NCBI GenBank assembly: GCA_034439475.1
Contig: JAWXAN010000040.1
Location: 1-44,052, forward strand
Length of the DNA: 44,052 bases
Direction: 5' to 3'
Origin: Candidatus Zixiibacteriota bacterium
Lineage (GTDB): Bacteria > Zixibacteria > MSB-5A5 > GN15 > FEB-12
The notes under the pieces are model-generated. The model did not search any database and had not been told where the DNA came from. It worked only from the letters and a program-made list of their open reading frames with translations. Below, one piece after another: positions 5,934 to 9,236 of this stretch; position 1 is the first letter of the stretch; each line of letters opens with the position of its first letter. Made by a program: the position numbers and the translations under genes.

Positions 5934-6662
5934 ATGATAGGTAAACTTGCTTTTACTTTACTCATACTTGGAGCCTCGGCGGGATTCTGTGTAGACCAGT
6001 CCGCTGTAAGTCTGAGCCACAGTTCGTTTGATTTTGGTATGATACCGGACGGATCCACACTCGCGCACACCGTCTGGATAAAATCCACGGCCAAAGATTC
6101 AGTTGAAATATCTGATATCAAGTCTGGTTGTGGATGCATATTAATACCCGCTTCCGTTTCGACTTTGTTGCCGTCAGACAGTCTACCCATTACCTTCGTG
6201 TGGGATGTGTCAGAGTCAACAGGCACCACGACACGCCAGCCCTATATCTTCACGAATGCCTCAATCGAGCCCTTGAAGTTTGCTCTGAAAGCCTTTGTAA
6301 CCTCACCAGCAGATAGTCTCGTCCAGGTTCGCGCATTGCCACAACAAATTGATCTTTCATCCAAATCCGGTCAGAAATCCGCTCGGGCCAGTTTTTCCAT
6401 TTTCAATCAAACAAATCAAACTTTGACTGCCAAAATAATTTCTCTCAGCAATGCTGATTTACTTGCTAAACTCCCCAATTCTATCAAGGCAAATGACCGT
6501 GTTGTCGGCTCACTGGCCTATGAGAGAATCGAAACTGTTACCGCTGACCCTTTGCACTATAGAAAGTCGGCTTCACTAACAATTGAAGTTACGAATCCTG
6601 CGGGTAAAAAAACTCGTCTGACGATCCCGATTATATTGGAAACAACACGCACGAGAATATAG
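5934..6662 (+). CDS. Exported DUF1573 protein, paralogue 1
   Basis: A 242-residue protein with an N-terminal signal peptide (MIGKLAFTLLILGASAGFC) and then a DUF1573 immunoglobulin-like domain. The conserved beginning 'FDFGMIPDGSTLAHTVW' and the C-G-C signature in 'IKSGCGCILIPA' are both present. A second beta-rich segment from about residue 125 is less conserved. It is the most divergent of four tandem paralogues and probably acts in the periplasm or at the cell surface. The family has no established biochemical role; its fold resembles ASH/HYDIN-type beta-sandwich domains. It is the first gene of the plus-strand array. Confidence 0.85.
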   Translation: MIGKLAFTLLILGASAGFCVDQSAVSLSHSSFDFGMIPDGSTLAHTVWIKSTAKDSVEISDIKSGCGCILIPASVSTLLPSDSLPITFVWDVSESTGTTTRQPYIFTNASIEPLKFALKAFVTSPADSLVQVRALPQQIDLSSKSGQKSARASFSIFNQTNQTLTAKIISLSNADLLAKLPNSIKANDRVVGSLAYERIETVTADPLHYRKSASLTIEVTNPAGKKTRLTIPIILETTRTRI

Positions 6663-6710: not shown

Positions 6711-7487
6711 ATGAGAACACGGAACATGAAACAGATCACTCAATTCCTGCTCGCGACGGCATTACTGTCATCAACGTCCTCTGCAGCGCCACGACTTGAA
6801 ATATCAGAGCCTGAATTCAATTTTGGGTTTGTGCCGCAGCATGCCGATTTGAGCCATGACTTCTGGCTCTATTCGACGGGCGACGATTCCCTGAAAATAA
6901 CCAGAATCGTTCCCGGTTGTAGTTGCACTAAAACCCCGCTGGAGAAGGAAAACATGGCCGCAGGTGACAGCACACTTTTGCATATCATGCTCGACACAAA
7001 GACATTCACCAGGAAAATAACGAAGGGGCCGCGGATCTGGACCAACGAGAATAAACCTGAATCAGACGCCATGACGCCTGATACATTCATTATGGTACAT
7101 GCCGATGTCATGATTGATCCCTTGGCGACGACCCCGATCACCATTAAGCCATTCAAACTTGATCTAACACCTGTGGGCAAACTCGTGCGGGACAAAATGA
7201 CTTTTACCCTCACCAACACATCAGCCACGCCGCTAAAACCAACTCTTGTCGTCGCCCCGACTCGTTTCATGGAGGTAACCCTCCCAGAAACTATTCCGGC
7301 AGGAGGTTCGGCGACTGGCACTATCGAGCTTAAAAAGGAGTATCTCAATACTTCAATTGCGTGCTCTTTTACATTTCAGCTCGATGACGCCTTACAAACA
7401 CGATTTACTGTGCCGGTCAAACGAACAGTCGTTTCGCCGGCGAATACCGCAACCGATATTGCAAGCAATGCTACTGGCAAAAAATAA
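6711..7487 (+). CDS. Exported DUF1573 protein, paralogue 2
   Basis: A 258-residue protein with a signal peptide ending near 'SSTSSAAP', followed by the DUF1573 domain: 'EFNFGFVPQHADLSHDFWLY', 'STGDDSLKI', and a C-S-C version of the cysteine motif in 'VPGCSCTKTPL'. The C-terminal half contains 'PFKLDLTPVGKLVRD' and 'FTLTNTS', repeated in paralogues 3 and 4. The start at 6711 is supported by AAGGAA eight bases upstream; a second ATG at 6726 is possible. It lies 48 bp after paralogue 1 and is probably co-transcribed. Confidence 0.87.
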   Translation: MRTRNMKQITQFLLATALLSSTSSAAPRLEISEPEFNFGFVPQHADLSHDFWLYSTGDDSLKITRIVPGCSCTKTPLEKENMAAGDSTLLHIMLDTKTFTRKITKGPRIWTNENKPESDAMTPDTFIMVHADVMIDPLATTPITIKPFKLDLTPVGKLVRDKMTFTLTNTSATPLKPTLVVAPTRFMEVTLPETIPAGGSATGTIELKKEYLNTSIACSFTFQLDDALQTRFTVPVKRTVVSPANTATDIASNATGKK

Positions 7488-7525
7488 CTTCTGATAGCCG
7501 AACCTCTAAACTTATGGACATCACA

Positions 7526-8278
7526 ATGAAAAAATTTCGTACCCTGATATTGGCCGCTTTGGTGCTCATCATTTCTTCAGCGGATCTATTTTCTGCTCCA
7601 AAGCTGACCATGCCTGAGACCGAATTTGATTTCGGATATGTACCGCAAAACTCCAAGATCAGCCATGTCTTCTGGCTCCATTCAACTGGCGATGATAGCC
7701 TTAAGATTACCAAAGTTATGCCAGGTTGCGGCTGTACGCAGGCTCCGCTCGACAAAGATATCCTGGCGGCCGGTGACAGTACTCGTTTGAATATTATCTT
7801 TGATACAAGGACATATACCAATGCCGTTGTGAAGCGTCCGCAAATCGAAACAAACGAAGGTACGCCGAACACATTTGTACAGATTTCTTCTACTGTCCTG
7901 AGCAACCCTGACTCAACCTTCCCGGTCATCATTAAGCCTTACAAGCTGGATATCTCGCAATCAGGCGAGAAGGTACGTGACCAAATAACTTTTAAGATCA
8001 CAAATGCCTCAAAGAATAATCTTGAACTGACGCTTGTCTCGGGACTTGAGGATATCGCGCAAGTGACCCTTCCCAAGAGTGTCGCTGCTGGGCAGTCCGC
8101 GGAAGGTGTTGTCAAGTTGAACACCGGTACTTTGGATGATTCTTTTGAGCGCTCTCTGACCTTTCAGGTAAATGACGAGCAGAAAAGCCGATTCACGATT
8201 CCTATAAAGCGGACTCTCCGAGTCCCGGGACAGGCCACGGACTCACCAGCTTCGCCCAAAGAGATCGGCAGCCGTTAA
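7526..8278 (+). CDS. Exported DUF1573 protein, paralogue 3
   Basis: A protein of 250 residues from the ATG at 7526, which gives a clean signal peptide (MKKFRTLILAALVLIISSAD) and has a GGA upstream; an in-frame ATG at 7514 would add four residues. The domain shows 'PETEFDFGYVPQNSKISHVF', 'HSTGDDSLKI' and the intact C-G-C-T motif in 'MPGCGCTQAPLDKD'. The second half carries 'IIKPYKLDISQSGEKVRDQI' and ends '...SRFTIPIKRT'. It is the closest relative of paralogue 4, with conservation along the whole length, and serves as the reference for interpreting that gene's internal TGA. Confidence 0.88.
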   Translation: MKKFRTLILAALVLIISSADLFSAPKLTMPETEFDFGYVPQNSKISHVFWLHSTGDDSLKITKVMPGCGCTQAPLDKDILAAGDSTRLNIIFDTRTYTNAVVKRPQIETNEGTPNTFVQISSTVLSNPDSTFPVIIKPYKLDISQSGEKVRDQITFKITNASKNNLELTLVSGLEDIAQVTLPKSVAAGQSAEGVVKLNTGTLDDSFERSLTFQVNDEQKSRFTIPIKRTLRVPGQATDSPASPKEIGSR

Positions 8279-8406: not shown

Positions 8407-9171
8407 ATGAGTATGAACAATATGTCAACCTTCGTTAAGACTGTCTCCCTTGTATCTCTGCTGATGCTGGGTGGCACATCGTTGATTGCAGCGCCACGGC
8501 TCACCATGCCTGAGACGGAGTTCAACTTTGGCTTTGTGCCGCAAAACTCTCGAATAAGTCATTACTTTTGGCTCTATTCTACTGGTGATGATAGCCTCAA
8601 GATTCTTAAAGTCGTACCTGGCTGAGGATGCACACAGGCTCCTCTTGAGAAGGACCTGATTGCTGTCGGCGACAGCACCCGTTTAGAAATTATATTCGAT
8701 ACGAAGACTGTCAATGGGATAGTATCAAAACGTCCCAAGATTGAGACAAACGAAGGAAAACCTGACAAGTTTGTGCAGATAACCTCTTCGGTAGTCAGGC
8801 GCCCGGACTCTACTTTTCCTCTGATTATAAGACCCTACAAACTTGATCTGTCTCAGTTCGCTGAAAGAGTACGTGACCAGATTAAATTCAAAATCACAAA
8901 CGTCTCTGACAGCACTATTGATTTGTCTTTGATTGCCCAGCCCAGCGAGCTTATGGACGTTACCCTACCGAAAACCATTGCCCCCGGTCAAACGGCTGAG
9001 GGACTAGCTAAGCTTAAGAAAGGCGCTGTGTCTAAAACGTTTAGCACGTCGTTCACACTGGAAGCCAACGATGCCTCTAAGAGTCGTTTTACTATCCCTA
9101 TCAAACGGGAAATACGACTTCCTGGACAAGCGGCTGACACGGCGGCTGGGACGCAGATCGGCAGTCATTAG
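8407..9171 (+). CDS. DUF1573 paralogue 4 with in-frame TGA at the conserved Cys: candidate selenoprotein
   Basis: The reading frame runs 254 codons with one interruption, a TGA at 8623-8625 (codon 73). It begins with a signal peptide (about residues 1-27) and aligns end to end with paralogue 3. The TGA falls exactly on the first Cys of the C-G-C-T motif, so the protein would read 'VPG-U-GCTQAPLEKD'. The 181 codons after it have no frameshift or other stop, and differences from paralogue 3 are mostly conservative, ending '...SRFTIPIKRE'. A stem-loop at 8635-8658 has SECIS-like position. Either TGA is decoded as selenocysteine, or this is a very recent nonsense mutation or base-call error. The Sec machinery is not in the window. 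TGA is an ordinary stop elsewhere here, so code reassignment is excluded. Start may be 8407 or 8413. Confidence 0.6.
8635..8658 (+). promoter_or_regulatory. SECIS-like stem-loop downstream of in-frame TGA
   Basis: Nine bases after the TGA, CAGG (8635-8638) pairs with CCUG (8655-8658). A single C bulges at 8639, then UCCU (8640-8643) pairs with AGGA (8651-8654), closing a seven-base loop CUUGAGA. The loop G at 8647 is 22 nt from the TGA. Bacterial SECIS elements lie within the coding region just after the UGA and typically have a short apical stem, a bulged base and a loop G. The equivalent region of paralogue 3 cannot form the upper stem. The loop sequence is not identical to the E. coli fdhF element, so function is inferred. 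Confidence 0.4.
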
Positions 9172-9210
9172 ACAAAATATCGACGCTCGATTAACGACTT
9201 TAAAATTACA

Positions 9211-9236
9211 AAGCCGCCCAGTTGGCGGCTTTTTTT
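9211..9236 (+). terminator. Rho-independent terminator of the DUF1573 array
   Basis: AAGCCGCC (9211-9218) pairs perfectly with GGCGGCTT (9224-9231) around a CAGTT loop and is followed by a run of T. The opposite strand is also T-rich beyond the stem, so it may stop the convergent GWxTD transcript as well. Confidence 0.92.

Follow-up and report, generated by a model that had tools for sequence, protein, structure and literature searches.

A zixibacterial DUF1573 gene with an in-frame UGA very probably encodes a selenoprotein and carries two adjacent coding hairpins

An in-frame UGA at a conserved cysteine position

The window analyzed here is a contig of 44,052 nucleotides (nt) from a Candidatus Zixiibacteriota bacterium (GenBank assembly GCA_034439475.1, contig JAWXAN010000040.1). 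At positions 8407 to 9171 of its plus strand lies a DUF1573 gene whose frame of 254 codons closes with a TAG stop and has a single interruption, a TGA at codon 73 (8623 to 8625), which we read as selenocysteine (Sec; U). The translated protein of 254 amino acids (aa) matched PF07610 (DUF1573) in two stretches with 76 bits, compared with a Pfam gathering cutoff of 26.1. Translation may start at 8407 or at a conserved Met codon at 8422, which corresponds to a nearly invariant residue (Met6) in the homologue alignment. The initial annotation of this sequence had described the TGA as the only defect of the gene, replacing the first Cys of a C-G-C-T signature within a core that aligns without gaps to the neighboring paralogue. 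Our alignment reproduced both points (the other copies in the window read CGC, CSC, and CGC, and the paralogue is delimited here as 7514 to 8278). Identity to this paralogue was 41/71 before the TGA and 108/182 after it, so the part downstream of the TGA is as conserved as the upstream part. In the read-through protein, U73 and C75 of the motif P-G-U-G-C-T are the only Sec or Cys residues.

We used the read-through protein as the query against 98 related genomes and later extended the searches to 132 Candidatus Zixiibacteriota genomes. Most of the 98 related genomes held homologues with one internal TGA. After cleaning, all 75 Sec copies had the TGA in place of the first Cys in the motif P-G-U-G-C-T/A (one variant reads P-P-U-G-C-T). 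Another 39 Sec copies were obtained from a hairpin pattern search described below (11 copies) and from other families of the class (28 copies). The total is 114 Sec copies with the TGA in one column, found in 101 of the 132 genomes, which is far more than chance would give and spans nearly all of the phylum. Downstream of the UGA, the ratio of nonsynonymous to synonymous substitution rates (dN/dS) was 0.03 to 0.23 in pairs with unsaturated dS (dS was saturated in several pairs); judged by these ratios, the codons after the UGA are under purifying selection. The gene thus shows two marks of a selenoprotein, namely, an in-frame UGA in the alignment column of a redox Cys conserved among its homologues and the retention of this UGA in relatives with purifying selection downstream. 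No Sec copy was found in genomes G001, G005, G016, G061, and G066 of the same family or order, some of which are incomplete assemblies (G016 is listed as 99% complete), and a plasmid search returned only distant Bacteroidota DUF1573 matches. In one family of the class, two or three Sec DUF1573 genes follow one another in tandem (G084:C100, loci L240 and L313; G107:C194, loci L305, L310, and L314; G106:C35, loci L308 and L309).

The assembly to which the window belongs comprises 2.66 Mb in 82 contigs and is 98.7% complete. Its tRNA-Sec scored above the Rfam cutoff and was called with a TCA anticodon by ARAGORN; selB and selA adjoin each other on the contig of the tRNA-Sec, and selD is also present. 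The initial annotation had named this gene set (selA, selB, tRNA-Sec, and selD in one genome) and a TGA at the same column of related genes as checks, and both are borne out. A match to the selB model at E ≤ 1e-40 was found in 95 of the 98 relatives (over the cutoff in 85 of 98); with selB in nearly all relatives, its co-occurrence with Sec copies is uninformative. The selD gene of the same genome (locus L207, contig C4:17635-18561, minus strand) is a selenoprotein gene itself, with an in-frame TGA in the motif TCAGUASK. Its hairpin is of the ordinary kind, the GUU loop lying 20 nt past the UGA, and no second invariant hairpin was seen there. On the genomic evidence, the case for Sec decoding of UGA 8623 is very strong.

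Two hairpins downstream of the UGA

The first hairpin, helix 1, occupies codons +4 to +12 after the UGA (8635 to 8661, plus strand), with its apical loop about 20 nt after the UGA. Its mean energy was −9.7 kcal/mol compared with −3.1 kcal/mol for synonymous shuffles, and it was more stable than the shuffles in all 75 Sec copies; for the same region in the Cys groups, there was no clear energy difference from synonymous shuffles. The pairing is further marked by compensatory changes (e.g., U-A to A-U and G-C at columns 33-50) and by a covariation score of 0.164, which exceeded those of all 500 shuffles and all slid versions. The loop lies 20 to 21 nt after the UGA in 71 of 86 copies, and in 72 of 86 a G stands first or second in the loop, a count that is weaker than it appears because this G is partly fixed by a Glu codon. 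Helix 1 therefore has the form of a bacterial selenocysteine insertion sequence (SECIS) element as tested here (at least 4 bp, a loop 16 to 37 nt after the UGA, and a G in the first two loop positions). The position of helix 1 shifts by a few bases from one copy to the next, and for this reason RNAalifold, run on a 73-sequence alignment, missed it and recovered the second hairpin only.

The second hairpin, helix 2 (8662 to 8676, plus strand), is formed by codons +13 to +17 and reads GCTGTC-GGC-GACAGC in the window; the consensus of the Sec copies is GCUGUC-GGY-GACAGC. At the synonymous level, these codons are fixed among Sec copies as GCT (100%), GTC (100%), GGT (81%), GAC (99%), and AGC (93%), whereas Cys copies vary at the same codons and usually encode Pro, Ala, or Ser in place of the Val. 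Of the 75 Sec copies, 73 have an intact helix 2, compared with 2 of the 28 close and none of the 46 distant Cys copies; the loop of helix 2 lay 42 nt after the UGA in 72 of 73 copies. The best stem at this exact place reached at least 6 bp in 97% of the Sec copies compared with 5% of synonymous shuffles. Searching the 98 genomes with the bare 15-mer of helix 2 uncovered the 11 further Sec DUF1573 genes mentioned above, each with an in-frame TGA exactly 39 nt upstream; the other nine new matches had no TGA at this distance. Helix 2 has a GGY loop, but at 42 nt it falls outside the 16-to-37-nt SECIS model, and an Rfam scan of positions 8550 to 8800 gave no match. A candidate pairing of its loop with an upstream CACC was dropped because the column varies. 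Given the ordinary hairpin in selD of the same genome, helix 2 looks specific to the Sec DUF1573 family and not like a general SelB site of the lineage. Overall, it appears very well supported that the pair of adjacent coding hairpins after the UGA is carried only by Sec copies.

Some Sec copies depart from the common pattern. A divergent copy in G072 (L106; G072:C7:44205-44849) has a broken helix 2 (CTTCCCGGCGATAGC) and a strong helix 1 with a GGA loop, which makes it a natural test of the need for helix 2. L303, L306, L307, and L311 (family f16) have other residues in place of the Pro-Gly that precedes U (TPUGCT, VAUGCT) and Ile in place of the Val encoded within helix 2.

Cysteine paralogues and gene neighborhood

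The tandem cluster on the plus strand opens with a more distant Cys paralogue (5934 to 6662; S-G-C-G-C-I, CGC), followed by a second one (6711 to 7487; P-G-C-S-C-T, CSC), both placed by PF07610 scan and tree. The third paralogue (7514 to 8278; P-G-C-G-C-T, CGC) has decayed hairpins and is the sister of the Sec copy at 8407 (Shimodaira-Hasegawa-like approximate likelihood ratio test support, 95). Most likely, it arose by duplication of the Sec gene and then lost Sec, although we infer the direction of this change. In the tree, Sec and close Cys copies are interleaved, and the Sec label changes 19 times; supported branches force at least 12 of these changes. Of the two Cys copies with an intact helix 2 in the first set, one is a very recent duplicate in G072 and the other a lone copy in G029; one more was found in G103. 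The simplest reading is repeated Sec-to-Cys conversion with subsequent decay of the hairpins, a direction that is again deduced. Sec has apparently been lost many times after gene duplication in this family, and the amino acids encoded by helix 2 (Ala-Val) change once they are freed.

The neighborhood of the Sec gene is conserved in 11 loci: other DUF1573 genes adjoin it, and two same-family genes and a MacB-like transporter set lie convergent to it. In the window, the minus strand between 9321 and 18165 carries two GWxTD-type genes, two MacB-like permeases, an ATPase, a membrane-fusion protein, and a TolC-like gene (putative names, judged from sequence without a domain scan). The genes of this stretch remain convergent to the Sec gene across families. 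Directly 3′ of the full-length stop codon, a terminator-like stem with a T tail (9210 to 9232, plus strand) was found in a terminator scan; it is supportive only, as the scan overall showed no clear excess over shuffles.

Interpretation and comparison with known systems

The N terminus of the Sec protein has a hydrophobic stretch resembling a signal sequence (8422 to 8494, plus strand; ...LMLGGTSLIAAP), which has no lipobox Cys and is accompanied by a helix at residues 5-22 in the AlphaFold model. The model (predicted local distance difference test score, 92) consists of two beta domains and this N-terminal helix. The nearest solved structures, with low template modeling scores, were ciliary central-apparatus (HYDIN-type) proteins, CEP192 SPD-2, and other immunoglobulin (Ig)-like domains; these matches make the fold class clear and do not indicate a function. 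No sequence relative turned up when solved structures were searched with a profile. The Sec protein is probably exported and acts in redox chemistry on an Ig-like fold, with the Sec-Gly-Cys pair most likely as its working part.

As a whole, the observations are very probably best explained by a genuine selenoprotein, with the UGA decoded by the Sec system of the same genome via the downstream coding RNA structure. UGA 8623 would be decoded as Sec by the genome's own SelA, SelB, tRNA-Sec, and SelD, and the coding RNA just downstream would direct this decoding through helix 1, aided by helix 2. The product would be an exported two-domain Ig-like protein (DUF1573, HYDIN/ASH-type) in which Sec73 and Cys75 most likely pair as a Sec-Gly-Cys selenenylsulfide that serves thiol/disulfide or peroxide chemistry of the cell envelope. 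Several points weigh against this explanation. The best helix 1 loop of the window copy starts with CTTG and has no G in the first two positions, and helix 2 belongs to the lowest-energy fold predicted for the 60-nt stretch in no more than 48 of 86 copies. The Sec-x-Cys motif is the sole basis for the redox role. SelB may bind either hairpin, of which helix 1 fits the published geometry and helix 2 does not.

One alternative concerns the division of labor between the hairpins and not Sec decoding: the UGA is a genuine Sec codon, helix 1 is the sole and ordinary SECIS, and helix 2 has another job (e.g., as a protein-binding site or pausing element). The loop distance and loop G of most helix 1 copies resemble the hairpin of the genome's own selD, and the Sec copy with a broken helix 2 (L106) also fits this alternative. 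However, helix 2 was lost in nearly all copies in which the UGA became Cys, which ties its job to Sec decoding. We rate this alternative slightly short of an even prospect. Alternatively, the two stacked coding hairpins might constitute a new class of bacterial SECIS, with the invariant helix 2 as the real site for SelB or an accessory factor; helix 1 would then shorten the effective distance (42 nt minus the 26 nt of helix 1, i.e., 16 nt). Such a class is possible, but on balance we doubt it.

The other alternatives dispute the Sec codon itself. Loss of a redundant paralogue by nonsense mutation would be tolerable next to three intact Cys paralogues, but a pseudogene is made highly improbable by the single TGA column in 101 genomes, the purifying selection on both sides of the TGA, and the synteny conserved in 11 loci. 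The initial annotation had already taken the codons after the TGA as an argument against an old pseudogene, and their identity to the paralogue and low dN/dS agree with this. A sequencing or consensus error at 8623 to 8625 might be suspected in one contig of an assembly of 82, yet the same codon recurs in independent assemblies from many studies, which leaves an error with a negligible probability. The recent nonsense mutation or consensus error that the initial annotation kept as its alternative is thereby effectively ruled out. A UGA would also be read through if this codon were reassigned throughout the genome (as in code 4 or 25). TGA, however, terminates 12 of the 31 open reading frames of at least 200 aa in the window, so the genetic code is not generally altered and TGA still serves as an ordinary stop; the full Sec machinery is present, and the hairpins are limited to UGA copies. 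Reassignment instead of Sec insertion can be given hardly any credence.

The initial annotation had proposed a possible new selenoprotein family. The selenoprotein part is upheld by the machinery, the 114 copies, the selection, and the hairpins; the family is a known one. DUF1573 proteins with a UGC or UxC motif (OS_HP2) have been listed as selenoproteins since 2007–2008 (PMC2398784, from 2008), as well as in 2022 (PMC9312934) and 2026 (PMC13188914), and these sources credit OS_HP2 to a 2007 paper on an Olavius symbiont. The window protein is like OS_HP2 (PF07610; NCBIfam NF041425) in its DUF1573 domain, in the Sec at the first Cys of UGC/UxC, and in having Cys homologues, and it differs in having two DUF1573-like domains. 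NF041425 scored the window protein at 63.9 bits, below the curated cutoff of 100. The same model matched all 34 aligned relatives tested (best E = 6.7e-24), which, judging from the E values, would likewise lie below the cutoff. Automatic annotation would therefore probably truncate these genes. The 2026 review does not mention the zixibacterial clade (PMC13188914), and we found no paper linking Zixibacteria to a DUF1573 Sec protein in the open-access literature (earlier reports elsewhere are possible). The zixibacterial clade adds a new subgroup to a selenoprotein family that is already known, and the two-hairpin RNA signal is the new part.

The Cys DUF1573 proteins of the window (5934, 6711, and 7514) share the fold, the signal sequence, and the place of the CxC motif with the Sec protein but have neither the UGA nor the conserved hairpins. 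In eukaryotes, the selenocysteine redefinition element is an additional stem-loop close to the UGA that may promote the insertion of Sec by different machinery; its likeness to the zixibacterial hairpins is an analogy only. By the bacterial rule, the SECIS loop lies 16 to 37 nt after the UGA, although some elements break this rule and distinct classes have been suggested (PMC13188914). Like the standard bacterial SECIS (PMC13188914, Fig. 2A), helix 1 has its loop about 20 nt after the UGA; the difference in Zixibacteria is a further hairpin, invariant in sequence, whose loop at 42 nt lies beyond this range. The 114 Sec copies and many Cys revertants form a large natural set for reading the SECIS signal column by column, which bears on the suggestion of distinct bacterial SECIS classes.
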